A stretch of 64,000 nucleotides of DNA, taken from positions 2,294,001 to 2,358,000 of the forward strand of contig OZ017797.1 in the NCBI GenBank assembly GCA_963969395.1, written 5' to 3'. The notes beneath the pieces are model-generated. The model had not been told where the DNA came from and made no database searches. It worked only from the letters and a program-made list of their open reading frames with translations. The stretch's first letter is position 1. Each line of letters begins with the position of its first letter. Below, piece by piece: positions 23,811 to 63,874 of the stretch. This DNA is from Pseudoscleropodium purum (lineage: Eukaryota; Streptophyta; Bryopsida; Hypnales; Brachytheciaceae). A program made the translations under genes and the position numbers.

Positions 23811-24490
23811 TGAAATGAATACGGTGCATTGGAAATATCCGTCAAAGTCTATCCTCGAGTCGAGGATAGTCTGAATCAATAAAAGGTAATTGAATATGAA
23901 ATATGAAGAAAAAAGTAATGCAGTTTACGAACTTGATTGTATTGCAAGTATCCTCGATTCGAGGATATCATTAGTTGATTGTACCCACGTCCGTGTGGAT
24001 GCGTAGTGACTATCATTAGGTGAAGAAATTACGAAACCCCCTTTGTAAAGTTAAGAAGTTAGAATTTATGAATCTCCTTGTTCCATTATCCTCGACTTGA
24101 GGGTAATTGTATGTATTTGATACGTTAGAAATATTAGAAAATCATAGTTATCGTGGAGAAGGGGAAAGATGAAATTTTTTATTTCTAAAAATGTTCAGAC
24201 AAATGACAAATATCCTCGAGTCGAGGGTAGTTTTATTATTCATAAATAAACAATTGTCTTTATTACTAACAGTGAGGTACGCACATAACTGTAGTGTGCA
24301 TCAGAAGTCTTGATGCTCCCGAATAGATTTTACTGTGTCCTATGAAGTTCTTCTGTTGACAGAGCGAATACTCTATTTTGTTTGTAATGGAAAATGTGTA
24401 ATAATCAATATCTTCTGTTAATTAATTGAATCACTGAACGTAGTGAATATTATGAGTTTTGTGTTTGAAAACATCCTCGAGTCGAGGATA
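23811..24490. repeat. Six dispersed CTCGA-class palindromes (left arm)
   Basis: Palindromes of the form TATCCTCGAnTCGAGGATA at 23811-23830 (degenerate), 23850-23868, 23949-23967, 24086-24106, 24211-24229 and 24472-24490. Intervals are irregular (about 40-260 bp) and the sequence between them is unrelated, so this is not a tandem array. All lie between the GC-rich islands and the copy C start codon, and the last one ends 40 bp before the ATG, in front of a splice acceptor (TTGTGCAG at 24522-24529). They therefore probably sit in a 5' leader intron. Mirror copies lie at 46632-47311. Confidence 0.85.
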
Positions 24491-24530
24491 ATCTTTTCTT
24501 GTATCTAATTTGTCTTCATTGTTGTGCAGA

Positions 24531-26048
24531 ATGGATACTTCTGTACCAAATGAGTTCGCAGTGTCAGTGCTAGTATTGCCTCCTGGAGTTGCACCATGCG
24601 AGGGTATCCCTCGCACTGCTTGGTATACAAAGTGTGTTATTCTTCAAAGTGAATATGGGGTGGAGGTGGCCAAAGGAATTTGTCATAGCGTAGACGCCGA
24701 CCTCGTCATTGACATAGATGGAAAGCCTCTTGGTGACGATAGAGTCGCAATACAAATTGCAGAGTCTTTGTGTGAGACTGAAGTTCCATCTTCTTGGATG
24801 TGGTCAATGCGTTCTTGGCCAATTTCAAGGGTATATTTGAATGGAGCCAACTTGTATGACCATGATCAAACCTCTATCTTTAAAGCTGCAGTTAATGCAT
24901 CAAGGCGGCGAGTTCGGGTTGGAGTTCGTACCTATGAGAGCGCTCGGGAGAGGCAAGAGCCGAGGAGCCTTCCAAAGAAAGAAGCCCTCCTCACCCCTCA
25001 AGCAATTGCAGAAGTGTCTTCCAAGACTTGTTGTGCAAAGAATTGCTTGCAACCATTTCCACGTGGGCAAATTCAGGCCATTCGGTCTCAGATTCATGTA
25101 GAGGGTGGAGTATATTGGCGAAAATCGCGTCTTCTTGACGTGCACAAGCAAATACACTGTGATGCAAATGGGAAGGATATGATAACATTGGCTGCTCATG
25201 AAGTTTGTCCTACTGCATGGTGCACAATCCATGGAGTTTCAAGGGCTACCTTCGATAGATACAAGGAGAAGTCAAAGAATGATGAGAAAGCAAAGCATCA
25301 CGGTAATCTTGGGTTGAAGAAGCCACGATCACATACCTTGCAAGGAACAGTTACACTTCGATTGCTTCTTGAAAACAGTGCTGACCACATGCCACATAAA
25401 TCTCGTACACTTGCGTCGGGGGAGAAAGTTCCATCTATGATTTTGCCATCTGCTTTTCGTTGGAGGGACATCTTGCCAGAGATTAATATTGTGAATTTAG
25501 CATTCCAATTGCAATATATATCAACCAGTGGTTTGAGTAACATTCGACGTTCATCATTTCCAGAATATGCTCCAAAAGCTCGTGGTGATAGTTTTGCACG
25601 TTGTGGTGAGTGTGATAGATTGAAATAGTTGAAGAGTGCTTGTACTCCACGCTCGCGGGCTCAAGAAGTATGGACAAAGAAGCTGAAGATGCATCTTGCC
25701 GGACAACAAGCACATAGAGAGTTGTACTATGCAAATCGCATGATGTCTGAGAAGCACCCTGATAAGGTTCTGACCATCATCCATGACAAGATGGATCATT
25801 CAAAGACTGCTTCTCCTCATTTTTCTCATAAAAGCAAGGCCATTGATTCATTTATGAAGATGCCCATTGCTGTTACAGGTATGATTGCTCATGGTCATGG
25901 AGATGTGCAATATGCGCACTATGGGTTGGACATCTTTCCAACAGATTCTAATTATACTGTAGGATCCATTGCAAAATTATTATGAGACTTGGAAGCTGAA
26001 CCAAAGTTCTCATCGCGTGAGTTGTTTGCCACAAATGATCCAATTAAA
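24531..26048 (+). pseudogene. DUF7869-type protein, 5' part (copy C, left arm)
   Basis: I chose ATG 24531 because it follows directly after a pyrimidine-rich acceptor (TTGTGCAG). The N-terminal region is SAND/leader-like with no known motif. It is followed by a conserved Cys/His region (KTCCAKNCLQPFPRGQI, then HEVCPTAWCTIHGVSRATFD) typical of the part upstream of DUF7869, then KMDHSKTASPHF and GMIAHGHGDVQYAHYG. The reading frame is continuous but holds a TAG at 25626-25628 and a TGA at 25983-25985. It ends where a GGCCATATTCG transposon terminus interrupts it at 26048/26049, just after FATNDPI. The C-terminal half, with LQLDN and GHTHEDID, is missing here and corresponds to copy A. I infer this was Element 2's DUF7869 gene, duplicated into this arm after inactivation. 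Confidence 0.75.
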
Positions 26049-26098
26049 GGCCATATTCGTTAATTTGAGACAAAATGGTCATTTTGAGACTTTCAAAA
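26049..26098 (+). repeat. Transposon terminus (Element 1 type), left-arm copy
   Basis: GGCCATATTCGTTAATTTGA, then GACAAAATGGTCATTTTGAG and ACTTTCAAAA. TTAA lies at 26044-26047, one A away. The first 26 bases equal those at 18995-19020, and the following ~25 match the right-end sequence at 63875-63898 (AAATGGTCATaTTtAGACTTTCAAA). This is a mirror copy of the Element 1 right terminus at 45024-45073. Confidence 0.7.
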
Positions 26099-27403
26099 CA
26101 CAAGTGCAACGTTTTTTTGACAATATAGTTGTTCAATTCAATGATAAATAAAGTTTAGTATTGAATGACTAAGCAACCTTGAGACTGCGATTTCAAACAA
26201 ATGCAGCTAATGAAGGAAAATTACATTAGTACACCGTATAATTAGAAATTTTTGTTCACATCGAAGGAAAAATATTGAAAGAGTTTGCACTCAACAAGTT
26301 CAATTTACTTGGAATATTAGACTATATTATTCTATTCTGAATGGCTTGTAGCATTTCTTCATAAATGAACTTCTAATTTCTTAGAGTTTGTGTGTATATA
26401 CAAAGTGGTTGCTTGCTTTGTTTTTCAAAATACTAGATTTTTACATTATATCTACCTTATTAACCTATAAAGTCCCAAGGTATTTTTGAAGACAAAGACC
26501 ATTCAAAACTCCTATTTCTATTGCAAAGAGGAAGAGAGTATTCAAAGTCTTGCAAAAAATACTTGAAAATGTTTTTATTTCTATTGCAAAAGAGCAAAAA
26601 ATTGACTTTCTTTTAGATTTGACTACAGGATCTTGTACTACACTAGTATAAAAATGTGGAGTATGATGTTTCAAAAACTTTCACCACGTGGATATAAAGA
26701 TATTTACATTTAAAGGACAAGAAAACATGTATTTCCTAACCTTGCTTGGCAAGCTTTTTTGGCTTAGTTTGAATCTTCCTAACTTAAATAAATTTGTAGG
26801 ACACATTTTGATTTTATATTTTGGGATGTTGAACAACTGTGTTGAAAATGTAGACCATAGAAATTCAACAACAAAGTAATAAATTTTCACTCATTCAATT
26901 AATACTAAGCAGATGTAGATTCAAGGTTGAAATAAAAACTAAATTCTTAATAGTTCTAAGATGAAATTAAAACACAATAATTCCAATGGTCAAATTGTTG
27001 TAGCAAATATACCCAACCTATTTAACAATGTTTTTGGAAGAGGGTGTCAAAATTGCATTCAAATGTGAGTTCTATTAGTTGTTTTTTCCTGAAAATGCTC
27101 AAATTGTCACAAAAACAAGATTGTCCATAACTTTTTCATTACTTCTCCAAATGGATGAACCAAAGCTTCAAATATAAAGTGAACACAAATGTGACATACA
27201 AGAAAAAAATATCAAAGAATTTATTTCAATTTTATTGGGAATTTTTTGGACTGCTTGGTCTCCTCTAAGATTCAGCTAGCATAATGAATGCTTTCAGACA
27301 CCGATTGAAATAAAAATGAAATTTTCCTAAAGCTAATGGATTTCTCTATGTTATAGGAGTTTTTGAAAGTTTCACTAAATTTCTTGAGCTCATAGATATA
27401 GTA
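26099..27403. other. Subterminal noncoding DNA of Element 1 (left-arm copy)
   Basis: AT-rich, with only short open frames on both strands. No palindrome of the dispersed family and no RNA gene seen. It separates the terminus from the last exon of NGQH unit 1; the distance (about 1.35 kb) is close to that in unit 2 (about 0.5-1.2 kb depending on which stop is used). Mirror: 43719-45023. Confidence 0.5.
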
Positions 27404-27649
27404 CTAAACCACCCTTCTCTTGGGGGAACTATTGAAGACCCCGTCCTCCATGTTTCCCTTCGAGTAGTCTATGGCCGCAGACGCTGCATCGGAGGCGGAG
27501 CACAACAAGTACGGTTTGGAAAAAGGAGCAGTGTCACAACTGCCATCCATGGACTCGTTACAAGTTGAAAAAGACTTTTCTGATCTGGAAAGGAGGCTCT
27601 GCGTGAGCCTCCCATTTGTAGGAAGGCTTGCATCAAACGGGAGTCCAAC
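27404..27649 (-). pseudogene. Last exon of NGQH unit 1 (left-arm copy)
   Basis: Mirror of 43473-43718, described there. It begins after a TTGCTTCAG acceptor and contains the conserved stretch KPYLLCSASDAASAAIDYSK. Confidence 0.6.
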
Positions 27650-27881
27650 CTGAAGCAAGTACAAAATATTTAAATGCTTGAGACATGATCCTCCAACAAG
27701 CAACAACAATCGCTAATAGCACTAACCTAATTGGACACATAAGAAGAAATCCAAGGAATAGAATAAAAAATCTAAACTTTGAAATTTTTTTTCAATATTT
27801 ACAAAACATTATTTACAAAAGATTATTTCATACACAAATATAACATACCACTGCCATTTTAAATGTGGGTACATGGGATGT

Positions 27882-29664
27882 TCACTTCCTACGGCGGCCA
27901 CGCCTTATGACTAAACCTATCCCAGGAAGTTCATATCGTATACCGAAGGCTTTGCTGGACTCACTCATTGCTTCCACAATTTGTTTCATAGAGAGATCAC
28001 GAGCAGTGAAAGGGTTCACGCCAAGCCGGTTCTCTTTGACATAATCCCGCAATTCATAATCCCGCAATTCTTGGAAACAGACACCTTCGGATACACCACA
28101 CCACGATTTGTTCTGCCAATGAGGTGCTTTGCGAATTCCTCGAAGTCAGTATCAGTGAAGTGCCCAAAATGTCTGAAGAACTCTCGCTTCAAATTTTGAT
28201 TGTTCACCTTGAATCCTTTCTCTACTCTGAACGGTTCGTCGGTGAGGGGATTAATCAATTTGCCTTCAGCGTGCATGGTTAGGAATCGTTCCCAATGCAC
28301 CCATTTCTTCTCCGGTAATGTTATGATTTGGAGTTCATTCTTTAGGTCCGAAGTGGAGTTAATCTTGGAGCCATCTTTGTCAGGATTTATGTTTTGGAAC
28401 CTTTGAATAACAGCTAACGAGAAACTCTGCAGTTCAAAATTAAATGTCTTTAGAGTAGAGCACATAATTCATTTCTTGTACATCAACTTATCGTTGATTC
28501 AAGGATAAGTCCTAAATGCTAAGGAGAATGAAAAAATGTATGACTTCTAGACTATTGTAGTGCTCAAAAGAATGTATAGGTCAAAGCTAAATGTCTTGAG
28601 AGTAGAGCATGTCATTCATAGCATATACCACAACTTATCATTGACTCAAGGATAAGTCTCAAATGGAAAGAAATTGTAGCCATGACAAACTTCAAAACAT
28701 TCATTATGGCTCAGATTTTTAGCAAAGGAATCTATTCTTCACTACATAAGTTTGAAGGAATTGAACCTTACCTTGTAGTTATTCTCGTTGTAGACCGAGC
28801 CGTTGCCTCTGACCTTTGGCTCCAAACTATCGATCGCTGGGCATTTCAAAATGCTCCAAATGTTCTGACACGCAATTAACTGGTTGCCCCAAGTTGATTA
28901 GGCATGATGTAGGTGGTTGATGAGATTGTAGAACTTTGAGATGTTTCGAAGTTTATTTGGGTCTTGAGTCCAAACAATTAAGGCATCCCAATTTTGGAGG
29001 TCGGCTTTCCGGTCTTCATCGCATGCTTCATTCTGAAGTTGTTTTGAAGCCGTAATGCTATGCTGACCGTTGATAATCATAAATCGCATATTTTTAATGT
29101 CCTCTCATTTCTTTGGCTTTTCCTTCAAAAGCATTTTCCGATCATCAACTGGAGTGAGATACACTTTTTGGCGTTGACCTATTTCCACCATTTGAATAAG
29201 AACTCGCTTCATGTCATTCACCATATTCTGTTGTAGTGTGCGAATGACGTATTCGTCGCTCACTATAATACACTGTTCGATGTCGACTGTCACTATAACC
29301 ATGTCAAAGAGGAAGTAGTCCCTATGCTCCTTCCAAAAGTCTTTTTGGATTTTGCCAATTTCCTCAAAGTCTGGAATTGGACCTTTGAAGGCTGCTAACC
29401 CAACAGAGTTTGTAGTCAAACTTGAGCTTGAACTAGCTGCACCTTCTGTACCAACCATGAAACTCTTCCTTCTCTTTCGACTAGTTTCTGCTCCTACTGG
29501 TGCACCCCTCTTCTTTGGCTCAGATCTTGTGTTCCCTGACTTTGCTCTACTTCCGGATGTTGTGGGAGCAGACGGCCGTGGTGTTGCAAATCCAGTTTTC
29601 TACCTCCATCCTTGTGTTGTTCTTCGACCCACTAAATGCTTCATAAACAGTCTTCTAATATGAT
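27882..29664 (-). pseudogene. NGQH unit 1 (left-arm copy)
   Basis: Mirror of 41458-43240, described there. Every inactivating change (TGA, TAA, TAG, internal deletion) is shared with the right-arm copy, so decay preceded the duplication. Confidence 0.7.
28487..28656. repeat. Two TTGA-class palindromes in intron 1 of unit 1 (left-arm copy)
   Basis: CTTATCGTTGATTCAAGGAT plus AAG at 28487-28509, and CTTATCATTGACTCAAGGAT plus AAG at 28634-28656. Both lie in the intron separating the NGQH exon from the next exon. Mirrors: 42613-42635 and 42466-42488. Confidence 0.8.
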
Positions 29665-29723
29665 CAACTCTATATCACATCAATATACTGAGGTTCATAT
29701 TCTAAATTTCTAGAATTGTTTAG

Positions 29724-30490
29724 TTATCGGTGAGTTGACGATAACTTTGATGATAGAAAATAACATACAAAGTGATCATTTATATATTTCAGGCTAGCAA
29801 TTACAATTGATTATTGTGAAATGAACACACCCTCAGATTTGAGTAAAAGTTATCATTGACTCAACGATAACTTTGTATATATTTCACAAAAGTTGATTAT
29901 TGTGAAATGAACGCACCTTTGGATTCTACCAAAAGTTATCATTGACTTAACGATAACTTTGCATATATTTCTCGATAGTTGATTATTGTGAAACGAACGC
30001 ACCCTCGGATTTGAATAAAAGTTATCATTGACTCAACGATAACTTGGCATATATTTCACAAAAGTTGATTATTGTGAAATGAACGCATCTTTCGATTTGA
30101 ATAAAAGTTATCGTTGACTCAACGATAACTTTGCATATATTTCTTGACAATGGATTATTGTGAAATGAACGCACCTTTGGATTCTACCAAAAGTTATCGT
30201 TGACTCAATGATAACTTTGGATATAGTTCACAACAATTGACTATTGTAAAATGAATGCACCTTTGAATTCTACTAAAAGTTATCGTTGACTCAACGATAA
30301 CTTTGCATATATTTCTTGACAATGGATTATTGTGAAATGAACGCACCTTTGGATTCTACCAAAAGTTATCGTTGACTCAATGATAACTTTGGATATAGTT
30401 CACAACAATTGACTATTGTAAAATGAACGCACCTTTGAATTCTACTAAAAGTTATCGTTGACTCAATGATAGCTTTGCATATTTTTCACG
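29724..30490. repeat. 86-bp tandem array, eight units each with one long palindrome (left-arm copy)
   Basis: The word GTTATCnTTGACTnAAnGAT begins at 29849, 29935, 30021, 30107, 30193, 30279, 30365 and 30451, spaced by exactly 86 bp each time. The palindrome extends to 29 bp in the best copies (AAAGTTATCGTTGA, C, TCAACGATAACTTT). Between palindromes lies a conserved spacer with GATTATTGTGAAATGAACGC. A ninth, isolated palindrome (TTATCGGTGAGTTGACGATA) is at 29724-29744. The array is upstream of NGQH unit 1. Mirror: 40632-41398. Confidence 0.95.
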
Positions 30491-30539
30491 ACAGTTGATT
30501 ATAACTAATACAAAGCAGTATACCTCGCAATTATAACAT

Positions 30540-31500
30540 TCAAAAACACAATGCACTTCCAGATGGACCTAATATGGGTTCTTTTCACACAAATTTTGCT
30601 TCAACAACATCTACATGGGGCTACATGACCAAAGACTCTTTTCCGGTTGAGAAAATATGAGGAAGCGTATTTTGCAATTGGAACAATACAATGGACACCG
30701 CACTTCCTAACATGAATTCCTTTCATACTGATTTTGTTGGAGCGACATCCACATGGGGTTGCATGATCGAAGACTACAATGTGATCTACAAAAAATACGA
30801 AGTGTACTTCGCGCTTACAACAATGCAAAGTACACCACGCTTCCTTATGGATCCAACATAAAATCTGAATACTAATTTCTTAAGAGGAATATCTACAGGG
30901 GGTTGCATGACCAGAAACTACAATATTCTCCGCACAATAATTGAAAAGGAAATTTTGCAATTGCAACAACGCAAAAGACACTACGTTCTTCATACACTAA
31001 AAATGAATTCTTCCTATATCAATTTCATAAGAGCGGCATCTACATGGAGTTGCATGACGAAGGACTAAAATTTCCTCCGTAGAAAATATGAAGCGTACTC
31101 CAATTACAACAATGCAAAATACACTGCGCTCTCATGGACTCATCATAAATTCCGTTCATACCAATTTCTTAAGAGCAACATCTACATGGAGTTGCATGAC
31201 CGAAGACTACAATTTTCTCCAAACAATAATTGGAAGCATACTTCGCGATTACAACAATACAAAGACACCACCTTTCCTCATACACCTAACATGAATTCAA
31301 GACATACCAACTTCAAAATAGCAACATGTATATAGGGTTGCATGACCGAAGATTGCATTTCTCTCGGCGGAAATGAGAAAAGCAGTTGTGACACTTGTGA
31401 TTACAACATTGAAAACCTAAATGCGTCTCCTCACAGACCCAATATGAACTACTTCCACACCAATTTCTTAAGAGCAATGGCTACATGTATGCAGATGCTT
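30540..31500. repeat. ~145-bp degenerate tandem repeat (left-arm copy)
   Basis: Six to seven copies marked by GGnnTGCATGACCGAAGACT or relatives near 30613, 30758, 30902, 31048, 31191 and 31336 (spacing 143-146). Each also contains CATCTACATGGnGTTGCATG, ACAATGCAAAnnACAC and ATGAATTC. It lies next to the 86-bp array. Short open frames inside it are by-products. Mirror: 39622-40582. Confidence 0.85.
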
Positions 31501-31778
31501 CTATGTTTCAAAACAAACAACAACGGCAACACATTTGGTAATGCTACAACCTATTTGAGGATAATGGCACTTACTCGAAACTCATTGCAACGTCCACGCT
31601 CGCCACTGAAACTGTCAAACTTGGGCCAAAAGATGTTGGAATACAATACGCCGCAGTCCGCAAGAGTACAAGAAAGCTCAACAAAGGAAAATGAACAAAT
31701 CAGCTACAGAAAGATTGATTAATTTTGATGTGAAATTGGCATAGAAGATGGAGGTTCCGGAGAAGGTAGACAGAGCTT

Positions 31779-32012
31779 CTAGAGAGTAGGCGCGGAAATA
31801 CTTGAGCAAAATGTTCTGGATTTTTGTATTTCCTTCAAATTCCTCAACATCATTCCACATCGGCGTACAACTTCTCTAACATCACTTAATGCTTTGAGCA
31901 ATGTCAGCACATTCCTTGTCAGGTTTACACCATTGGAGTGCGACGCCTTTAGTATGGAATCAACAACAGATTTGCCAACATTATAATGTTTATTAATAGT
32001 GTATATATTTAT
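31779..32012 (-). other. Possible exon of unknown protein (left-arm copy)
   Basis: Mirror of 39110-39343, described there. Confidence 0.25.
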
Positions 32013-32159
32013 TCACATTCTTTGGATGATATTTGATGAATTTATGAAGGGCTGACATACCATGAAACAATACTTCCCAACAACTACACAATTAAAGTAG
32101 GGGGCTCAAAAATCATTCATCTAAAGAAAAAGATGCATTTTTATTATTTTCGTTATTTT

Positions 32160-32430
32160 TGATATTTCGTTACAATATAACAAAATAACAAAATAACATA
32201 AATAACAAAATAACAATATGACAAAATTAAAAAATTAAAAAAACAAGTATTACTCAAATAAATACTAAAAATAAAAAAAAATTTAATTTTAATTTTAAAT
32301 AAATTTTAAATTTTAAATTTAAATTCAAATTCAAAATTTTAAAATTTATAATTAACAATATAATAAAATAACAATGTAAAAAAATAACAATGTAACAATA
32401 TAACAATCATACTACTAAAATCATAACTCC
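32160..32430. repeat. AT-rich low-complexity tract, AACAAAAT-type (left-arm copy)
   Basis: Runs of AATAACAAAATAACA and AATTTTAAATTTAAATT words. No coding content. Mirror: 38692-38962. Confidence 0.8.
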
Positions 32431-33840
32431 CATTGTAATATTGCAAATGCTACCATTAATACTAAGGACTACTGCTTGTTATGTTACGCATTCATTGTAT
32501 CACATTGGTAAAATTATGATACATTTCAATAGAATGCATGATAATGATTTCAATAAGTCTTTAAAATAATTATTTTAAATTTTTGGTAAAAGTACTTTCA
32601 ATTATGCATACGTAGATATCATATTTTTTCACAATGTGATATTTCAGAAATACAGTAGCAATTTGCATCACCTTTGTAATATCACTTATTACAAAGAGTG
32701 ATATTATAGAAATAATATAGTTGTTGCAATTAAGGTGATATTAAAGAAGATTTGTAGGGTGATATTATAGAGGTAGCAATTCCATTGCCTCTCTTGGCTT
32801 ACATTTCTATGATTTTGTGCTTTTGTGAGTTTTGAGCTTTCATGATTTCCATTTTCAATTGCTATTATCAAATGATTTTGAGAAATTTATTCAATTCAAG
32901 CAATTTTGAATTTCACAACAATTAAGCTATTTACAAAGTTTTTGATATTTATAAGTTTTTTTTTTCAATTCTTCAATTTGAGGTGCCATTCTTTGTAAAA
33001 TATTGAGTCAAATTTCTAATGCATTCTAATATACGTGTATCCCTCATAGTATTCACTATTGCATATATTTCATTCATCATTCCATAAATTCCTATTGTAC
33101 ATTTCAATATATGCTTACTTGTACAGGAAATTATACAAAGATTTTTGTAAATTTTAATTAAAGATTTATTGAATTTTTTTCGCATTTTAGGTAGAAAGTG
33201 AATACGCTCAGCGAGACGTAGTCGGAATTGAAACGGAGTGTTTTTTTCTTTGGAAAATGACAGTGCTTTCATGAAAACACAGAGAGAACAAACAATTAGG
33301 CTGGCTCACTCAGCAAACTAATTAAATGAACCGGTAACTAAATTAATAAAATGAAATATGGTGTTAAGGCAGGTACCCCAAAAATCGCCACTTTTATGAA
33401 TTGTGTCTAGTTATTATTGTTAGACTAGTCAAATTTTTATATTTTCCTATTGGCAAGTGAAAGGAAGTTCTAGTGTACTAAAAAACATGACACTTGGATA
33501 CCATATGCATAAGTTATGGAGGGTCAAAGTTCTTTTTGGTAGATGTTCTCAAATCATTTATTCAACATATGTACATATTGATTTGGGATATGTACACAAA
33601 GAGATGGTGATGGTTTTAAGTAGGGTGCAATTTTGGGTGTACTCACCTTAGTTCTTTATATTGATGAAGTGTCCGGAATTTCCCAATCCTTAGAAGAAAT
33701 CCTCTCTACAACCCACAATCACCAACATGGGTAAGTAACTCCACAATAGTTTGTCAAGGACTTGGGATTATAAATTCATTTTCAAGCTAATTATGTAATT
33801 ATAAAGAGTGAATTATTATTGTTAGTAATTTTTTGAAAAA
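32431..33840. other. AT-rich DNA without a recognisable gene (inner part of left arm)
   Basis: Contains open frames of 99 codons (32973-33272, minus) and 64 codons (33457-33651, plus) without known motifs. The arm ends at 33840 within TTTTTTGAAAAA. Mirror: 37282-38691. Confidence 0.45.
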
Positions 33841-38962: not shown

Positions 38963-39109
38963 AAAATAACGAAAATAATAAAAATGCATCTTTTTCTTTA
39001 GATGAATGATTTTTGAGCCCCCTACTTTAATTGTGTAGTTGTTGGGAAGTATTGTTTCATGGTATGTCAGCCCTTCATAAATTCATCAAATATCATCCAA
39101 AGAATGTGA

Positions 39110-46591: not shown

Positions 46592-46631
46592 TCTGCACAA
46601 CAATGAAGACAAATTAGATACAAGAAAAGAT

Positions 46632-50331: not shown

Positions 50332-53300
50332 ATAGAATAATAATGAGCAAAATGTATATGAAATTTTGAAAATAATTATCTATATGATTACAAAAATATT
50401 CATTCAATTAAACAAAAATATATATAATAATGCTAAATGATAATGACACTTTTTATGCATCATTTTTGAACTTATAAGAATTTAAAAATCTAGAAAAGCT
50501 AAAGTAAAAGTGAAAATGTTGAAAAACAAAAGTTAAAATCTAGAAAGTAAACGATATGTTATAATGTAAATTATTACTACTTACTTTAGATAATTCAATA
50601 ATTAAAAATATGATTTTTGTCTTAAAAGGTATAAAAAAATTCTTAAGAAAATTATTGCAACATAAATAGGCAAGAATTTGGTTCTACTAGCTTGTATTGA
50701 AAATAGAGTGGAAATAAAATTTATTAGATTTTGTTTTCTTAACTTAAATGAAGATAAAATTAATAGATACTTTGAAAGTTACAATTAAGTTTCACCAAGT
50801 ATCATATATTTTTTAGAGATGGAGACCATTAAGCATTAAGTGTCTAAAGTTGATTAGTGATCCTTGACCAAAAGACAACCTTATACACAATAGCATTTGA
50901 AATTGCTTTATTGTGAAGCAATTTAACAAAGTACTCATGTAGTATTGAAGAACATTCAATTATATATTTGTATGCAAAGTTCCAATAAGAACTAGAGGTG
51001 CAAAATGATGATTATTACAATTAAAATTGAACAAAATTGTCAAAATTAGATGTCCTAAGAGAAAAAAATTGGTATTTAAATCCAATTTTTTTTGTTTTTG
51101 CATGTCAATAATATATGAATTATTTTCAAGCACAATGGAATGCAAGCATAAATAAATTCAACTTATTACAAAGAATTTGTAAAGGTATAATCCATAAATA
51201 TCCAAGTGGTTCTCCCTCCAAAATTATTTCTTGGACCCCTTAATTTCAAATAATATATAGTAAATTTTAGGAACTTTTACTAAGTAGATTGCAAGATGTC
51301 TGCATTTAAAATGAAGTAAATAAGTTTTTTAATTGGATTTTGAGCATATTTTGTGACTAGATTATTTGACTTTGAATCTTTTTTTTATTTAAAATTTTTG
51401 TACAATATACTTTGAATTACAAAAAATTTATGATGAAGATTTGAGTTGAAAGTCTAGAAAAAAAGTTCCAAAAAAATCGATGATTTTCATTCTATAAAGA
51501 ATTGATAAATAGAACCATGTTCAAAATTCAAGGAAAGACTAAATTGGCAATAGCTTTTAAATGGAATTGAAGCACACTACTCCCCAATGGTAAGATTGTT
51601 CTAGCAAGCATATTTAATCTTGTGAATTTTTTTAATTTTTTAATTGTAAAAAATGAGTTCAAAAACAAATCTCATATGTTATTTCTTCAATTAATTTTTA
51701 TGATTGTAGCCTATAAAACAAAAACTCCACAACTTTCACATTACTAATCCAAATAGAATGAATCAAAGTTTTCCATATAGACAAAAATACTATCAATGAG
51801 AAAAATGAGAAAATTTTTTGTAGATATTTTTACTATATGATCTTCTACTTTTTGAGCTTATTGTGGTATAATTTTTGTTCCTTGGCATTGATTGGAATAA
51901 AAATTTGATTATGTAAAAGCTATTATGTTTTCTAATCTGATTTAAGAAAAAGTTTCAAAAAATCATTTCAAACTTTAGATTACAATATTATGTGAGCCTA
52001 TCCAAAATTTATCTTGTCCCCCAAAGGGACTTTAGAAATAAGGACTACATTAGTAGACAGTCCAAATTTCCCAAATTGTGAAGATGTATTGTAATATGAA
52101 GTTTAGAATAATAATAGTTGATGATTAATCTCAAAATATAGTTGTGAAAAATTATTAATGAATCATATCCATGTGCTTAAATCAATTAGTTTATAAAGTG
52201 ATACTTTTGAATAAAATTTGAGGCCATAAATTAGAAATTCTTTCTTAAATCAATTGTAGATTGAAAATTGGTGATTCTCTCTAAGGAAAAATTTATTGAA
52301 AGTTAAAATTATTTAGTTCTAATCATATTGATTTTTGAAGATTTTTAATTTATTTTTTATTCAACTTGTATTTGAAGGGTCATAACTATTAGTATCTACT
52401 AAATTATACGTACAGTATTTGCAAAGCAAAGTTTTCAAAATCAATACTTTATAAATGTTAACAACAAAACTAAAAAAAGAATCTTTAAAAAAATTATGGA
52501 TTAAAAAAAGCATTTTCTATATTTGAAATGTGTTTGCAATCATCTATTGTTCAAAATTTGAACTCCTAATCCTTATGAGGTTAAGGTTTCCCTTTTAAAT
52601 TGAATATGTAATTGATATTTTAAATTATTTAAGAAAATCACATTATAGAATATTTTGCATTGCTATCACATTCATCTACCCTCCAATTTTTAAAGAATAG
52701 TATTCTTGATATTTTTTTAATCATGCAATATAACTTTTTGTAGCCATATCTCAAAATTTCTACAAAATAAAGTTTTTCTAATGTGCAAATGCAATAAGGA
52801 TAGTTGAGAGCATGCACTAAATTTTCTATATGAATTGGATCAAGGGAGATTTTGTTGAAAAACCTAATATTCAACCAATGAGCATTTGCCTACTTCTACA
52901 ATGTCTAGAATATTTTATTGCATGATCATTAATTAGCTAGGTTTCTCTTTGAAAACAGCTCGTAATTAATACATCTTTGAAGTATTTGAGTTTAACCCTT
53001 GAGTGTCAATACAAATGTTTGGTGTCCAATGGATGGTAAGGAATTTTTCTAGTAGAACAAAATTTCAACTATCCATCCTTGGAATTTTCACTACTTCAAA
53101 GTTGTTGCTAGTTTGCTATTGTTTTTTAGTTGTTGTCTCTTAATTATTGCTTTAAAATTGTTACTTCAAGGTTGTTTTAAGATTTTTGCTTCAAGTTGGA
53201 TCTTAATTCTTGCTTAATTGTTGTTTTTTAGACATTTTTTTCTATTCTTTGTTATTTCTTGCCTCTTATTATCTTTTATTGCATTTTTACTTGTCTTATT

Positions 53301-53395
53301 CTTGCTTCTTATTGAGTTTTAGTTTTAGTTTTTGTTGCCTCATGTTATATCTTAGCTTTTACTTCTTACTATCTTTTAGTACTAACTTGAACAAA
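50332..53395. other. AT-rich DNA without a recognisable gene
   Basis: Very AT-rich with short frames only. Part of it may be the interior of a non-autonomous CACTA element whose right end is at 53883, but no left end was found here. Confidence 0.5.
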
Positions 53396-53860
53396 AAAAT
53401 GACTCACTATAGTCATATGCTACATCAACCAAAATATGACTCACTACAATCATATCCCATATCACTCAAAATATGACTCGCCATAGTCATATTTCATATC
53501 ACTCAAAATATGACTTACTACAATCATATTCCATATTACTCAAAATATGACTCATTGCAATTATATTCCACGTTAGCCAAAATATGACTTTGGTGAGTCA
53601 TATTCCACGTAGTATTTTTTTATTTTGCCCGGGCAGCTCATGAAAAAGTCAAACCTTCATGAATGGTCAACATATATGCCATATTGGCAAAATACATCTA
53701 AAAATGGTTTATTATACTTTCAAATCTATATGACTCCAAATATAACTCACCAATCATATGACTAAAAGTGAATGACTCAATACAAGTCATCTATAGTGTT
53801 TTTTGCTTAAATCACATTTTTTTGATTTTGTGACTCACTGCAATCATATTTTGCTGTTAC
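53396..53860. repeat. CACTA subterminal repeats, 37-bp period
   Basis: Five to six copies of AAAATATGACTCACTACAAT followed by CATATTCCATATCACTC, with starts at about 53395, 53432, 53469, 53506, 53543 and 53579. Within each, TATGACT and AGTCATAT form a short inverted repeat. More isolated ATGACTCA and CAATCATAT words follow up to 53850. Their position directly inside a CACTA terminus fits transposase-binding subterminal repeats of that superfamily. Confidence 0.75.
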
Positions 53861-53870
53861 AAAACAATCA

Positions 53871-53883
53871 TTTTCTTGTAGTG
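53871..53883 (-). mobile_element. CACTA transposon right terminus
   Basis: TTTTCTTGTAGTG is the reverse complement of the classic CACTACAAGAAAA end. It is preceded by the subterminal repeats above. The left end was not identified in this window. Confidence 0.75.
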
Positions 53884-54476
53884 TTTGTTGTAAGAAAGAC
53901 ATGTCTTCTACAATAATTTGACTTCCTATAAGTGATTTTCCAATTTTTTAAGCCAATTTTTCACAAGATAGTGAAAAAAGATGATTTCCAAAGTCATCCG
54001 TTCATCCATTAGGGGTTAAAAAAATCTTTGAAGGTAGAGTTTTTGACAAATAAAATTTTATTTTGGTTATAAAAAGATGTCCAAAGAAACTACACAAATA
54101 AAACTTTATCTTTTATATTTTATTTTTGGGGTCCATGCCTTATGTCAAATAGGGAAAATAACTTGAACATGGTCATTTGGGTTTTAGGAATTAAAACCAT
54201 AAATTTTTTTCAAACCAATTGTGGTTTTAGAGAAATTTTCTATTACACTTCGCAAAAATCTTAAATATTCGAAATTGTTGGAGAATCAATGAATTTTTTT
54301 ATCTACAACCCTATTTTTTTGGATACTTAGGGTTATATGTATAGGGGGAGGGGGCAGGTTACCTTTTCTTTTGGCGGATTAGGCGGCGGCGCTAGGCAAA
54401 TGGAGGGCTTCCACGTGGCAACGCGGGCAGCTTCGTCGTCGGTGGCACGGTGGCTTCTTCGACGGAGCTGGTAATC

Positions 54477-54492
54477 AGGGTTTAGGGTTTTT
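54477..54492 (+). promoter_or_regulatory. Telo-box-like motif
   Basis: AGGGTTTAGGGTTTTT. AAACCCTAA-type telo-boxes are common in plant promoters, particularly of genes active in dividing cells (established knowledge). Here the motif is in the GC-rich region upstream of unit 2. Confidence 0.5.
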
Positions 54493-54508
54493 GTTGCAGC
54501 TTCCATCT

Positions 54509-55003
54509 CTAACTCCCTGCACCTGCCGCTGCTGCCGCTGCCACTTACGTCAAGTGTTTGCACGCACGGGACCTGCGAAGATTCGTTGGGAGGTGCCACA
54601 ATTTCTGGAGCGCTCTGGGAAGGCTCTCGGTGGATCCTAGGATTGCACCAGTCGGAGTTCAGGTTGTTTCAGCTTTCATCCCTGACTCCCTGCACCTGCC
54701 ACTGCTGCCGCTGCCACTTACGTCGAGTGTTTGCACGCACGGGACCTGCGAAGATTCGTTGGGAGGTGCCACAATTTCTGGAGCGCTCTGGGAAGGCTCT
54801 CGGTGGATCCTAGGATTGCACCGGTCGGAGTTCAGGTTGTTTCAGCTTTCATCCCTGACTCCCTGCACCTGCCGCTGCCACTTACGTCGAGTGTTTGCAC
54901 GCGCGTGTACCTGCGAAGATTCGTTGGGAGGTGCCACGATTTCTGGAGCGCTCTGGGAAGGCTCTTGGTGGATCCTCGGATTGCGCCGGTCGGAGTTCAG
55001 GTT
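54509..55003. repeat. 173-bp tandem repeat, three copies
   Basis: Copies start at 54509, 54682 and 54855. Each contains CTCCCTGCACCTGCC, CACTTACGTC, CGAAGATTCGTTGGGAGGTG, TCTGGAGCGCTCTGGGAAGG and TCGGAGTTCAGGTT. The third copy lacks about 9 bp of the GCTGCTGCC part. Copies differ at few positions, so the duplication is recent. Confidence 0.9.
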
Positions 55004-55559
55004 CATGCATACTCCGACTTGATTAGGGTTTAGTGTTTTCTTGGAGGTTAGGAGTGCTAGAATGACGTGCTAGTGTGTGACGTTTTGGTTTGGGCGTTAT
55101 TGGAGGGTTTTGGATGCATTGGTGTTCATTTGAGGTTAGGGTGAGAGCGTTGTTGTAGACGCTGGAGTCTTGCTTGTTTTGCTTTTCGTGTTTTGCTTTT
55201 CACAACCATTCTGGTCTGCGATGACTTCGGTGAGAGTGTCGCCTAGATCGCTCTCAATTTTCAATTTCCTGGGATCTGTGTGAGAGATGTTCGCGTTTCA
55301 CGTTTCAAGCCAATCGCGTCGTACTGATCCATTGGCTTCCATGTTGTAGATCCTGGGCGTGAAGAGGAGGCAAGTGTCGTTAGGGACAGGCTCACGGTCA
55401 AGGGAGAAGCTGGTGATCGTGTTCCAGATCAATGAGATTTCTTGGATTTCCCGTTTCGTGTTTCCTCCCTTGATTCAGTTTCGTTGGGTTTCGCGTTTCA
55501 GCTCACTGAGATTTGTGGGAAGACAGATGTGGGAAGACAAGTGCGGGAGGTCAAGTGTG

Positions 55560-55732
55560 GTAAGTTTGCTTCTGTGGCATGATTTGCATCGCAGTCCTTG
55601 TTCTCGTGTGTTCGAATTTTATGAGTTTTGGGAATCTCTTGCCACTTATCTTTGTAGTTGTTGTTTCATTGCTTGAGTTGCACGTCAAGTTGTAGAATTT
55701 GATGTTAGTTTTTTTTTATTGTGTATTTGCAG
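55560..55732 (+). other. Predicted 5' leader intron of unit 2
   Basis: Donor GTAAGTTTG at 55560 and acceptor after a long T tract (TTTTTTTTATTGTGTATTTG, then CAG) ending at 55732. Both sites are close to plant consensus. No protein frame crosses it. Confidence 0.55.
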
Positions 55733-56127
55733 GTGTAAGTGTGATTTGCATTGATATTGCTTGGAAGAATTCGAAGTTCTGTTTGGCAGTTGCGTGGGGA
55801 ATTTGCAATTGATTGCAGACAGTTTGCGGTGGGTGCTTCAGCAATTCACATTGGTGTCAAACTTCTTTTGTTTTTGGTACGCAAGCTGCATCTTGATTCA
55901 GTTTTCATTTAATTTTGGTTCAATTTGTAGAGTGCTCATCCAACTAAGTGATGCTTTGCTTCCATTTGTAGAGTGCTAATGGTTTGGTTCAGTTTGTAGA
56001 GTCCTTTGGTTGAGTTATGGTTCAGTTTGTAGAGTGCTAATGCAATAAGAATAATATGCAAAAGGCCTGTAGAGCTCTGATAAATTTTAGGGTTTTGGTA
56101 CCAGGATCGTCCCAGCTTCTTATTTAC

Positions 56128-56668
56128 TTATCCTCGACTCGAGGATAAAAACCTTGAGACCAAAACTTCATCAAAAATTTTAATCAATTATCCTCGACTC
56201 GAGGATATCCTAGAAGACCCCTTCTTCCAGGAATTAATGAAAAATCTCAAATAATAAATCTGGAAGATCAAATTACAGAATGGAATCATCTAATTCCACC
56301 ACATAATTCTGTGTAACGACATATCTAGAACACTAGAACACAAAACGAGCAAGAAGGAAATGACTAAAAACAGTTATCCTCGACTCGAGGATAAAGAGGA
56401 GCTGTCAATAATGACCCCCCACAAAATCCAGAAATAGAATTTCCTATTAAAAAATAAATTGACTACACCATGTCAATTGTATTTCTATCAATCTAGAATG
56501 TCTCTGCTATATTCATGAAGGGGAAAATCACTTAGATCGATAAAAGGATGTATCCTCGAATCGAGGATATCATGCCTGTAATTATCACACTCGACTGAAG
56601 TTAGTTCTAGATGTACCTAAGCCAGTATTCAGTACATAGCCATGAAAAATATCCTCGATTCGAGGATA
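56128..56668. repeat. Five CTCGA-class palindromes upstream of the unit 2 start codon
   Basis: TATCCTCGAnTCGAGGATA-type sites at 56128-56148, 56188-56207, 56374-56394, 56551-56569 and 56650-56668; a half site (CACTCGACTG) is near 56588. The last ends 30 bp before ATG 56699, which follows a TTACAG acceptor, so the group probably lies in a leader intron, as in the DUF7869 copy C gene. Confidence 0.9.
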
Positions 56669-57340
56669 AAAACAGATGTAATACATTAAGCTTACAGCAT
56701 GTCCTTATTGCGTATGACAGGGTCCCAGAAAATAGAAGAAAACAACCAGACCTCAACAAATGACTATTTCCACATGGAGCTCCTCATTGAACCCTTCCAG
56801 AATCCTTTGGGAGAAGTGCCATTCTTCGAGGAAATGGCTGAAAACTACGGGGAGCTGTGGAAGTTCAAAGATGTAGTTAATCAGTGGAACTTTGGAGTAA
56901 ATCGACAGAAGAACTACGTCTTCCTCAGATACCAGCCAGAGGGAACAATCAGGTTCATGCCATGGAACCTTAATGAGAAGGTGACTCTGATCGAGCAACA
57001 CCGATCAGATTACCTTGTAATCATTCTCCAAGAAGTAGATGGAAGTGGTCACCCCCTCCCACACGTCCATTCAATTGTTTGCAATGTTGGACTTGAGTTA
57101 GGGGGGTTCGATTTAGCAGAGTTATTATCATACCTCACAGGGACGCACTTAGACTTCTTGGCGGATGAGTTCGAAACCAAATTCTGGTCGTGGAATCATG
57201 TGTCCTCCACAGCCCACATCCGTCGAGTGGCTGCGATATTCCTTTCTCTTGATTGCTTTGCTCTGGAAACCTTCTCTAGAAGTCACCAGAAGCTTACAGG
57301 GAAATCAAATGAACGCGCTCTTGCTAAAGAGAAATCTGGG

Positions 57341-57421
57341 GCACCACCTGGGAGCAGGAACACGAGAGCACCACCTGGGAGCGGGAGCACGAGGGCACCA
57401 CCTGGGAGTGGGAGCACGAGG
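57341..57421 (+). repeat. 27-bp coding tandem repeat in unit 2
   Basis: Three copies of GCACCACCTGGGAGCGGGAG plus CACGAGG at 57341, 57368 and 57395, encoding (A/T)APPGSGSTR-type units just before the basic stretch KRKAVER. A flexible, positively charged linker is likely. Confidence 0.9.
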
Positions 57422-58220
57422 ACACGACCTCGATCAGAAAACTAGAAGAGGAAGGCAGTAGAGCGTACAGAAGGCGATACAAATAGTAAGCGCAAAAAGT
57501 CTAACCTAGTCGAAAAGACTCGAACAGCCGGGAGTTCAGGATCAATATTGACTGACCTCCCTGGTGCAGGGGAGCAGCCTGTACGAGAAAAGGAAGATCA
57601 CGAGGAGTTTACGAAGTACCAGAAGGAGTTCTGGGATAACCATCAGAAGTGCTTTCTTTTTTATGGTAAAACTTTCGATATTTCCATTGAGAAATGCATT
57701 CTGGCGAAGGACACATACATCGTGAGGAAGCTGGAGCGGAACATGGTTGACGTTGTCAAGAAAAAGCTTGTGGAACTTGGAGACGCAAAAACTCAAAGGC
57801 AAAAGCTGTGCCTGACTCCTGTGGATGAAAATGGCAAACTCCTAAAGAGTGCCCCAAAATCGTGGGATGACATCAAGTCTGGAGAATTCATGATCATCAA
57901 CGGGCAGCACAATGTGATGGCCTCAAAAGAGCTTCAAATTAGAGGGTGTGGAGAGAAGCGACGAAAGGAGCTCTAGACATGGAACGCAAGTATTGTATGG
58001 GCTACTGATCCCGTGAAGCTGACGAATATCTCCGAGTTCTACAATAAAACCAACCACATTAACCATGCCCAGCCGACCTGGGGAAATCAGATTATCAGCT
58101 TACGCAACGTGTGGGTGGACTTAGGGAGACCCTACCTCCTCTCAAACGAACCAGTGAATCGCAAGAACTCATCCGTAGCCAGTTTGACGCAGTATGCGGT
58201 ATGTCAATTCCATCTCTGGC

Positions 58221-58368
58221 TATCCTCAAGTCGAGGGTAATGATCATATGCCTTTTATCATGTGTTTGATAGTTTTTAGAATTGTGCAGAACTGTGAAGT
58301 AAGACTTGGCTTAGAAGAAGTGACTTCGATTTCGTCTCTGTCTCACACTCATCCTCGGCTCGAGGATA
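58221..58368. repeat. Two CTCGA-class palindromes in intron 1 of unit 2
   Basis: TATCCTCAAGTCGAGGGTAA at 58221-58240 and CATCCTCGGCTCGAGGATA at 58350-58368, inside the 58199-58425 intron. The intron is homologous to the one in unit 1 that holds two TTGA-class palindromes. Confidence 0.85.
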
Positions 58369-59781
58369 ATTCTTGTTGTCTAGTCTAAATTTACTTGCCT
58401 CACATAGTTCATGTATGCTATGCAGAAATTCACAACCTTGGTCCTGACACGATATCGAAACATCAATCCTGAGAAAGATGGGGCAACAATCAAGAGCACC
58501 ACCGACGTGAAGAACGAGATAAAGATTATCACCCTACGTGATGAGATTTATGAACTCTGGGATGAATTTCTTGTAGGCTACTCCGAAGGTAGATTGATAG
58601 ATCCCTTAACCAGACAAGAGTACAGGGCAGACAAGAAGTTTAACCCTAAATCATGTTCGCTAAAGAGGGAGTTCTTCAGGCATTGTGGCCATTTCACGGA
58701 CAGAGATCTTAAGGATTTTGCTCTGCATTTGCTACACAAGACTCTGGAGCGGACACGGCCATACCCAAAGGTCTTAGTTAGTAAAACAAGAATTCTGATT
58801 GAAGACAATCAGAACGCTGCAGATTGGGTCGACCGTCGGAAGCGGAAGAGAGTGATTCACGAAGAATTGCTCGCTGTGAAGAAGACTCTAGTCTTCAGGG
58901 ACGACTCTGGAGACGTCGTCGACAAGACCTGGAAGCCGTGGAAACGGAGGCACCGGTTTTCAACAGCAACATGGAACTTCTTGCTTGCTACCACTCCAAT
59001 CCCCTATTTCACAAAGCGGCTCACAAATGAAGGCAAACTAAAACGAGTAGAAGATTTCAGTGAGAAGTTTCCCGACCTTCTGCCCATGTTTCAGCGCTTC
59101 GTCAAACTCAAGTATCGTCTAAGGCAGCCATTTGGAGATGTCGACATTCGGGGATTTGAGAGAGTTGCCATGTCTGTGGTGGCGAATTCGTCATGGAAGT
59201 ACAATAACGGGTATCTGGGTTTTGGAATACTCGATCTCCGCAAGGCACCCAAACAAAAGGCTAGCAAGTCAAGTACTTCTGGCATACTTCTACCATTCCT
59301 GAACTACCTGTCTACCCACTTGGATCCCAAGTTTGACACTCCCAATGTCTGGCTCTGGATTGTTGGGGATTCTCTGGATATGGAGACTGTATCTAACTTC
59401 ATTGCGGTTAAAATGCAAGATTACGACTCAAAGCTCTCTTGTTACATTCCGGGTAAGGCAGAGAGAATAAACAACATATCCAGCCGGGCAAGCGCGACTC
59501 AAGTGTACCTCATCTTTTTGTTCAAGAAGAATGACGCCAACGCTAAGCTCCTTGAAATCGGTGTGAAGGACGAGTATAGGACGCCGAAAGATATGGCGTA
59601 CTATGATGATTCCGCGAGAAACAATGAGGCGAAGTGGAGAATCTATCCATCGAAACTGAGGATGGAGTTCTATTTGGATATGCTGTCCACATTTGTGAGT
59701 CCGGGTGAGAATGTGTTGGGAATCTACACCGGATCCAAGTGCATGCTAGCTGCACAGGTAATAGCTCCGCTCAAGTGCATA

Positions 59782-59878
59782 TATCCTCGATTCGAGGATA
59801 CTATAAGCTTATGTTGATTTTTTTATGTTCTCCACTTTGTTTTTAGTGATAACTTATGTCATCCTCGACTCGAGGATG
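59782..59878. repeat. Two CTCGA-class palindromes in intron 2 of unit 2
   Basis: TATCCTCGATTCGAGGATA at 59782-59800 and CATCCTCGACTCGAGGATG at 59860-59878, inside the 59758-59953 intron. In the second copy both outer bases differ from the consensus but still pair with each other (C with G). Confidence 0.9.
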
Positions 59879-60945
59879 ATCTGACGGAGATGATTCTAAT
59901 TGATGAAATCAGAGATACAAGAATGTACTGATTGCCATTCCTCTCTAATGTAGATGTACGGTGTATTCTTCTACGGTATTGACGACAGCGTCGTCTATAA
60001 GAGGGAGAGAGGAATGGCGAAGTTCGCTGACAGATTAGACATGAATGACTTTCTCCATTTGAATTCACCCTATGGGAATTACTTCGTTCAGCCGGCACTT
60101 CTGGCGGCTGCGGATCATGCGGCTGCATCCACATGTGAAGACGATGGCAGCTCGGATTCAGAGCACTCTCAAGAGGCAAGTGTAGACGAAGACAATCCTT
60201 CCATCGACGAATTTGGGACAAACAGGTCACCTAGTTCGCTTGCTCGAGAGAATATGGAAGATGTGGACGTTGCGTAGGAGGATGTTGAAATTCACCTCCT
60301 AGAGGACGGCGGGCAAGAGATGCCACGAAATAGTAGTGTGCAAGCGCCGGCACAAGATGAAGGCCTGCAAATACTAGCGGAGGCTCATGAATGGGACTTG
60401 CAGCGTTTGGATGATCTTGCACTAGAGGCACAGAGGCAGGTAGTTTCTCGTGTGCGAGATGGAGAAACAGGCAATGAGGATCGTCGCACTCAGTGCTCTA
60501 TGTCAATGGTTGGGTTGGCCACTGAGACTCCCGTTCTCATTCTCAGTGACAGTGACGATGACACTGAGATCATCGAGAAGTCTGTTGTGAGACCAGAAGT
60601 TGGAGATTCTGCACGATTAGTCTCGCCGAGGTCAACGGAGATCGTTGCAAGTATCAAAGAGGAGTATGACTGGTGGGATAAAGAATTGGAGAAACAGAAA
60701 AGAAAGGACGAAGAGGATAGGGAGAAGGAGCGTAAGCTGAAAGAGGTCATGGATTATTCGGAGAGTCAGAAATGCGAGAATGAGGCATTGAGACTGAAAT
60801 TAGAGGCACTTCAATCGCAAATATCCTCCCAGACAACTCAGTCGCAACCTGATCAGGGTTCACAGCAGCCATGTGGTGCAGAGGTAGTGGACGTTTGCAC
60901 ATCTCAGGATCCCAAGCTCCATAGAACTCCCCTCACTACGTTCAA

Positions 60946-60965
60946 TTATCCTCGGCCCGAGGATA
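60946..60965. repeat. CTCGA-class palindrome inside exon 3 of unit 2
   Basis: TTATCCTCGGCCCGAGGATA, read in frame as part of NYPRPEDR. It is the only palindrome of the set lying in coding sequence. Confidence 0.8.
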
Positions 60966-61351
60966 GATCACAAGATTCCACTGGAGAGGCTGCAGAAGTC
61001 AATGTTAATAATTCTGTGGCTCAACATTTTGATGAAAGATCCTCTGATCAGCCGCAACTGAAGTTGTGCTCCTCAGCTGACAGTCCAACCACTACAACTG
61101 GGAAACCAAATCTTGTAGAGAAGGACAACAAGCAAGAATTTGAGAACATAGAGCCACAAGCAGTCACTGAGGGGGGTAAAGAGGGTGAGGATGACCATCT
61201 AGGATTTGACGAGGAAGACTTGCATTACTCGAATCCTTTGTTAGACGAGCAGCTCGTCGACTACGAGGGAGATGATGCTGCAGATGCTACAGAAGAAGAA
61301 AAAAAATCCAGGATGGTCGTCGACAACACCTGCGCAAGCGAAGTAATTGAG

Positions 61352-61888
61352 GTACACATTCCAAACTCCCTCCCTACTGAAAATTTGATCTGTGTCTACA
61401 AATTGCTATGTCATGGTTGCACGTGTTCTCTAATTTGCATGAACCTGCCTCATCTAATTGGGGGTCCTCATATGTATTTATTCTGGTTGACAGGAGGGGT
61501 TCACCAGTCCTTGATTGTGTGGCGCGGACGATGAATCCATATGTGATTGGATTATGTAGAGGAGTGTAATAGAGTCGTCATAGCGTACTATTTTTTTGCT
61601 CAAATAGCGACTGGCTTAATGTAAGAAATCATCTTTCGTACGCGGCATAATATGAAATTGGCGGTGTTTTTTGCCCAATAGAAAATTGCAATCTGAAGTC
61701 TGCAAATCGTATTGTAGTTTGGAGTTCAATGTTGAAGAGAAATGAAGAGGCTGTGGCAGAATTCCTTTCTCAGTGCTCTAAGCCTCCCTTCGACATTCTA
61801 GGACAAGAGCTATGTGGGAAATTTGAAACCTCTGGGAGGAAACTCCTCCACCACCCTGAAAATGCATACGAACTCATTTTCCTAACAG
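61352..61888 (+). other. Predicted intron 3 of unit 2
   Basis: Donor GAG/GTACAC at 61352 and acceptor TTTTCCTAACAG ending at 61888 keep the reading frame (phase 0 on both sides). An alternative is that the open frame 61729-61914 is an exon followed by a frameshift. No palindrome was seen in this intron. Confidence 0.45.
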
Positions 61889-62455
61889 TTCTGGCTGATC
61901 TCTCATCCTTGTGATGGGTCGTCTTCTAGCAAAGACAATACTCTTCTCACTGATGACTTCCCAGAGAAGAATGTGTGCAATGAACGCGATAATGCTATGT
62001 TTCTCAAGCCATTGGACCATGAACTTCGTGGGGATAATTTGCTCATGGGAAGTCGAGCCTTCTAGCTTCGTCAATTGCAGGAAAGCTGTGACCCGAGCTA
62101 CTTGTGCAAACCTGTGGAGACTCATAAGATTGGTGTTGCACCAATGACGAATTCAGATCACCTAGTGCGGAATATTTTGAAGGGAACGAGAGAGTCTGTT
62201 GCAACCCTTGGCACTTGTTACGAGCTACCAAGGATTGATTTAGTGATCGAGTCTGGGACGTCTAGAAAATAGAGACGTTTAGGGAATGGAGAACTGTATA
62301 TAACTGACTTTGGACATTAAGTGTTTTTTTATTGATCATTCAGTAAATTTTGCCCGGGCTGAATTGTATGATTTTGATTGCAAACTGTAATTGTGATGAA
62401 TGTTTTGTATGACCATATTTCCTTTTTTTACTGGCATTACTTTTTGTTCACCTCA

Positions 62456-62476
62456 TTATCATCGGATTGAGGATAA
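62456..62476. repeat. Degenerate CTCGA-class palindrome before the last exon of unit 2
   Basis: TTATCATCGGATTGAGGATA plus A, 36 bp before the acceptor at 62511. Confidence 0.7.
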
Positions 62477-63864: not shown

Positions 63865-63874
63865 GATAAGAAGG

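Follow-up and report, generated by a model that had tools for sequence, protein, structure and literature searches.

Clustered 21-bp palindromes in nested two-gene DNA transposons of the moss Pseudoscleropodium purum as candidate sites for an element-encoded reader

What are the short palindromes that recur through one locus of the moss Pseudoscleropodium purum, and what might read them? We addressed this in a 64,000-nucleotide stretch (assembly GCA_963969395.1, contig OZ017797.1, positions 2,294,001 to 2,358,000 of the forward strand; this whole stretch is hereafter the window), which holds two nested elements, each with two divergently transcribed genes, one for a DUF7869 protein and one for an NGQH protein (the NGQH genes of elements 1 and 2 are called unit 1 and unit 2). 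With moderate confidence, we propose that the palindromes are clustered dyad binding sites of ~26-kb two-gene terminal-inverted-repeat (TIR) transposons, read by an element protein, most likely NGQH, and controlling both genes.

The palindrome family is confirmed. Using the strict pattern TTATCNTYGANTCRANGATAA, we found 18 exact matches in the window; eight of these lie in an inverted copy at 21058-33847, which leaves 10 independent sites, fewer than the 17 or more different ones claimed by an earlier, sequence-only reading. Allowing two mismatches raised the count to 39, compared with an average of 0.01 over 100 shuffles. The duplicated arm contains 15 of these, the remainder of element 1 has 11, element 2 has 13, and the window outside the two elements has none; 24 of the 39, all within the two nested transposons, were not made by the inverted duplication. 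Across the 313-Mb genome, a wider form of the pattern (TTATCNNNGANTCNNNGATAA) matched 748 sites versus 3 for its reversed control, and the 50 genome sites listed were all on contig C1, at nine places, one of which had a single site. The sequence-only reading had tied the palindromes to the elements, and they are not equally common elsewhere: among the twenty 10-kb stretches of the 200 kb flanks, sites within two mismatches occurred in three, all belonging to a second copy of element 2, with none beyond it. The design itself was constant across families, namely a length of 21 base pairs (bp), a single-base centre and mostly a GANTC core. We pooled 78 sites from ten loci and from the window, counting one arm of the inverted duplication, and selected them for at least 9 of 10 outer bases and at least 8 of 10 pairs; 62 had the GANTC core. 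The gap from TTATC to GATAA, computed independently of the core, was 11 in 64 cases, and no other length, up to 39, occurred more than three times. A chance origin was judged unlikely from the shuffle counts, both here and in the leader scan given below. Palindrome matches in viral contigs (30 stretches, one site apiece) were taken as chance.

Elements 1 and 2 are TIR DNA transposons, as established by terminal repeats and target duplications in element 1 and in the second element-2 copy. Element 1 (18993..45075; ends AAGGCCATATTCGTTAATTTGAGACAAA) lies inside the DUF7869 gene of element 2 and was delimited by its matching ends and by the unoccupied target site of the second element-2 copy. Its 25-bp repeat AAGGCCATATTCGTTAATTTGAGAC stands at 18993 and 45051 with no mismatch between the two, and its target duplication is AATT, with one extra T at the right. 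The second element-2 copy (C41:2,421,485-2,447,547) spans 26.06 kb between related ends, which have 4 and 5 mismatches to the element 1 repeat (window coordinates 127485 and 153523), and its target duplication, read by eye, is TTTG. The window copy of element 2 is colinear with it except for insertions, of which the 26 kb of element 1 is the largest. The left piece (17650..18992, minus strand; 98.4%, colinear) contains the 3' half of the DUF7869 gene (copy A), and the right piece (45077..63926; colinear blocks, mostly 97-99%) ends in the right terminal repeat at 63902-63926 and includes a stretch, 48317-50005, that is not present in the second copy. The left terminal repeat of element 2 was searched for in the window and not found. 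The inverted duplicate at 21058..33847 is a copy of 37275-50064 (5 mismatches in 12,790 bp, arms 3.4 kb apart) and thereby duplicates the 5' DUF7869 half (copy C) and unit 1; this 12.8-kb inverted duplication is either a recent event or an assembly error.

Within the elements, the sites are found in both gene leaders, up to about 1.1 kb from the gene start, and in putative NGQH introns, with one exception, a decayed site at 60946 within an open frame. The element 2 DUF7869 leader (46631..47332, duplicated at 23790-24491) carries CTCGA-class sites at 46631, 46892, 47016, 47154, 47253 and 47312; these had been thought to fit the written pattern and instead show 2-4 mismatches. CTCGA-class sites in the element 2 NGQH leader (56128..56669) begin at 56128, 56188, 56374, 56550 and 56649. 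The element 1 NGQH leader (40650..41398, duplicate 29724-30472) comprises an 86-bp tandem array, whose eight GTTGA-class sites are tandem duplicates, and a further site at 41378. On the plus strand, the putative first intron of unit 1 (42351..42695, duplicate 28427-28771; called by eye and homology) holds sites 42467 and 42614, that of unit 2 (58199..58425; splice signals by eye and homology) holds 58220 (3 mismatches) and 58349, and the putative second intron of unit 2 (59758..59953; by eye) holds 59781 and 59859. The site that the sequence-only reading placed at the end of its span (62456..62476) is real but decayed, with 2 mismatches; it precedes one of the late exons of unit 2 and is 1.5 kb from the right end of element 2. 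A splice-acceptor-like AG occurs at the start position or at most two bases from it in 6 of the 9 leaders examined by eye, so the leaders resemble introns of a 5' untranslated region. In the second element-2 copy, the terminal repeats are distant from the sites within two mismatches, by at least 3.7 kb on the left and about 7.5 kb on the right. These positions in leaders and introns, kilobases from the terminal repeats, disfavour transposase end-binding as the role of the palindromes, a likeness that had been drawn earlier.

The split into two classes was borne out in the half-site sequences: unit 1 reads TTATC(G/A/C)TTGA, with two exceptions, a decayed TTAA half-site and an aberrant site at 29724/41378, and the copy-C leader and unit 2 share TTATCCTCGA. 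The genome nevertheless has more than the two versions first described. In the four families with both leaders read, the version common to the two genes was TTATC(G/A)TTGA, TTATCCTCGA, TTATCTT(T/C)GA and TTCAGCGCGA, respectively. We scanned these eight leaders, taken from loci known to hold sites, for near-perfect palindromes with at least five G/C, and obtained 6, 8, 3, 3, 1, 6, 3 and 5 sites per leader compared with 0.01-0.09 in shuffles. The half-site consensus was TTATCGTTGA in both leaders of family 1, TTATCCTCGA in both of family 2, TTATCTTTGA and TTATCTTCGA in family 3, and TTCAGCGCGA in both of family 4, which keeps the length of 21 bp, the centre of one base and, for the most part, GANTC, NGQH intron 1 included. 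For each DUF7869 leader, the NGQH leader of its own element was the best partner (rank 1 of 24 pairings). The NGQH gene of a further locus, L001, has TTATCCTCGA sites, four in its leader and one in intron 1. Among ten further leaders, TTATC-type sites were found with a looser filter in 7 of 7 of the group at 38-44% and TTCAGCGC-type sites in 3 of 3 of the distant group, where L063 had one site only. By inspection, the GTTGA class is unlikely to have arisen through CpG decay, since decay in element 2 also gives the opposite form, TCAA (47016, 58220), the half-sites of the unit 1 array and introns are TTGA bar one TTAA, and position 6 changed too. A version shared by both genes in four families, one of them quite different, fits a reader specific to each element, as the sequence-only reading had suggested, but the pattern is less sharp than claimed there, several other leaders mixing TTATC versions.

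We then considered NGQH as the candidate reader. Unit 2 begins with exon 1 (56699..58198, plus strand; in-frame TAG at 57443 and 57974), assigned a ParB/Srx-like domain from the fold predicted on the L001 homologue, and continues with exon 2 (58426..59757, plus strand), the C-terminal half with a degenerate beta-class methyltransferase fold. The unit 1 gene (41523..43715, plus strand; duplicate 27407-29599, minus strand) is decayed and 43-56% identical in amino acids to the unit 2 pieces. The predicted structure of the L001 homologue shows the ParB-CTPase (Srx) fold, and prediction for NGQH also gives the permuted methyltransferase fold of beta-class DNA amino-methyltransferases, for which Foldseek returned CcrM as the nearest solved fold; the two folds lie on successive exons that would form one protein. 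At least 150 NGQH matches were found in the genome (150 of 264 candidates were scored), some being pieces of one copy. About 50 matches are distant, mostly 28-33% identical to unit 2, many of them with long open frames, and are possibly a recent family; the NGQH of family 4 is the most distant of the four, at about 30% identity. L001 itself, a contig filed under the cyanobacterial genome AVDCRST_MAG81, is probably eukaryotic contamination; its NGQH gene, which appears to contain introns, is 43% identical to unit 2. Both stops in unit 2 exon 1 are TAG, and the second (57974) faces a CAG codon of L001 in an alignment made by eye; a change from C to T through decay of methylated DNA could account for this, but the fit is weak because the unit 1 stops are TGA and TAA. 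At L072 (4063-4890), we also observed an open reading frame (ORF) for a NIF-like phosphatase (PF03031, E 1e-18), which reads DLNG where DxDx is usual.

Under our proposal, an NGQH protein with ParB/Srx-like and methyltransferase-like domains would bind each site as a dimer, the dyad corresponding to two helical turns, and its binding would control expression of both divergent genes of its element. This control would probably be anti-silencing, with the element kept accessible to transcription, and might include autoregulation; each family would have altered the bases on either side of the GANTC core together with its own reader. The nearest analogue may be VANC of the Arabidopsis VANDAL elements, which, in the part of the source available, binds motifs that are specific to the family and lie in the non-coding regions of its VANDAL, and counteracts silencing (PMC5735166). 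The same partial source describes short motif clusters in introns, upstream and in other non-coding parts, motif growth by tandem repeats, family-specific versions and a second gene beside the transposase (PMC5735166), all of which have counterparts here. In contrast, the moss sites are 21-bp dyads with a mostly constant GANTC core, the predicted folds are ParB-like and methyltransferase-like, the transposase candidate is DUF7869, and anti-silencing is proposed by analogy. TnpA of En/Spm, which reads 12-bp subterminal motifs, is a second protein of its element and, as proposed for NGQH, recognises repeats close to its own promoter, but the sites here are not subterminal. Bacterial ParB-parS shares a ParB/Srx fold (for NGQH, as predicted) and palindromic sites near its own gene, although parS is a different palindrome from the 21-bp one of the moss.

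Several observations weigh against this proposal. The likeness to ParB-parS, already noted in the sequence-only reading, extends to the predicted fold but not to the GxxR motif, as ParB is defined in the part of the source available (PMC12704722): at the place of this motif, N361-G-Q-H364 is invariant in 45 of 45 rows, with S mostly following (GQH[S/N]), and the arginine is absent. At the strand taken for methyltransferase motif IV, DPPY was present in 0 of 13 rows, with D-x-(R/Q)-x-x-P in 11 of 13, and in FxGxG motif I the last G was replaced by K in all 10 covering rows; family 4 reads DFQSLP and FTGGK at these two places. The folds are barely visible to sequence search, with nothing significant for NGQH among Pfam, NCBIfam and PDB profiles (the best hit being an arginine methyltransferase, E 0.35) and a ParB-like PHROG match in 1 of 45 members (E 0.019). 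The best ranking of 24 pairings comes from four families and is weak by itself, and the family 3 NGQH leader yielded a single site under the strict filter. Families 1, 2 and 4 have clean version sets; the half-sites of L059, L060 and the mid-group leaders L064, L065, L067, L068 and L069, however, mix T and C at position 6, so that the TTATC-type versions form in part a continuum, which slightly lowered our confidence. The agreement within family 1 could reflect leader copying, since the 86-bp array is common to both its leaders. Finally, the two genes of families 1, 3 and 4 were assigned to one element by nearness and orientation only, terminal repeats were established for the two elements of this locus only, and family 4 yielded no match to the terminal repeat core.

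The DUF7869 protein is the other element product that might bind the palindromes, for autoregulation or for assembly of a transposition complex, and we regard this as possible but somewhat doubtful. Its own leader holds sites in all four families examined, and its consensus contains conserved acidic residues and the motifs IHDKMDH, QLDN and HTHDDID, which are reminiscent of DDE enzymes; it is a candidate DDE-type transposase. Most sites, on the other hand, are not subterminal but clustered in leaders and introns. Of the 20 ORF pieces in the window, only DUF7869 passes the Pfam cut-off, and it had no sequence match in PDB. The element 2 gene, which the sequence-only reading had taken for separate copies, is one gene: copy A and the 5' half, copy C (45140..46630, minus strand; two ORFs with one in-frame stop between them; duplicate 24492-25982, plus strand), are adjacent in the second element-2 copy, and the element 1 insertion with its empty site there identifies them as two halves. 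Copy B (19575..21057, minus strand), 89% identical over 100 amino acids to a class-1 gene in L056, is by this comparison the remnant 3' half of the element 1 DUF7869 gene, which breaks off at the edge of the inverted duplication and has lost its leader and 5' half. The family 4 frame is open across 887 amino acids. A tblastn search of viral contigs returned no relatives of DUF7869 or NGQH, and no paper was found under the name DUF7869 in the library searched.

It is unlikely that a host transcription factor or insulator protein binds the sites, the families having drifted or been recruited to different host factors. Leaders and introns are the usual seats of host regulatory sites, mixed versions inside single leaders would suit a tolerant reader, and TTATC/GATAA resembles plant GATA/I-box sites. 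This explanation does not, however, predict a coupled change of both leaders under a constant 21-bp design, nor the absence of sites from the flanks beyond the second element-2 copy. Rather improbable is an origin as tandem-repeat or duplication debris with no reader, in which agreement within an element would arise from leader copying (concerted evolution). The 86-bp array in both family 1 leaders and the tandem copies in the unit 1 array speak for it, but the element 2 leaders have no flanking similarity to each other, the symmetry is maintained, and the CTCGA version recurs at 43% protein identity in another source (L001); simple tandem-repeat debris was judged unlikely as a full account. 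A role in RNA, in which leader introns would form hairpins that influence splicing or the production of small RNAs, seems very improbable: many sites do lie in putative introns, some just 3' of the apparent 5' splice site (L001 3396, family 4 12992), but a single central base leaves scant room for a loop and the leader sites may be untranscribed.

The window and its flanks also contain other repeats. A repeat at 14357-17651 with ends TGTCGCAGC...GCTGCGACA and two ORFs recurs at flank positions 133444-136730 and 148495-152308 (window coordinates), representing several insertions into these elements with pieces 84-98% alike. An AT-rich array with a period of ~90 bp occupies 6810-12145, and three copies of a 173-bp tandem repeat lie inside element 2 (54491-55003). 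A short interstitial TTTAGGG run, presumably of the plant telomere type, marks the site of a 1.7-kb difference between the element-2 copies (in the flank, at window coordinate 132890).

A more speculative and distinctly doubtful extension of the NGQH proposal is that a plant-type transposon lineage uses a phage-style pair of ParB and methyltransferase domains for self-recognition, the methyltransferase-like part reading the GANTC core and another part the family-specific flanks, with each family activating its own copies only. In the accessible part of one study, a phage ParB-CTPase fold is fused to an N6_N4 methyltransferase, so that the fold pair also occurs there in mobile elements (PMC12704722); the moss case differs in its eukaryotic transposon setting, its degenerate methyltransferase motifs and the placement of the folds on successive exons of what would be one protein. 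The site of CcrM, as given in the part of its report available, is GANTC, the main core of the palindromes (PMC6787082), although NGQH has lost DPPY and FxGxG and its reading of GANTC is a proposal. Among the listed papers on ParB, eukaryotes and transposons, we found no equivalent described in titles or abstract openings, which does not establish absence from print. If this extension were true, the constant core and fast-changing flanks would amount to a two-part address code, and a reader that also carried a NIF-type phosphatase domain in the same protein could act on transcription.

To our knowledge, few transposon regulators have been seen to change together with their DNA sites. In this moss, many families in one genome share the same site design, which makes a specificity code directly testable by swapping proteins and sites. 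These findings give DUF7869 a clear context as a transposon protein, and they would place the ParB fold in a further, eukaryotic setting, alongside methyltransferase-like and phosphatase domains.

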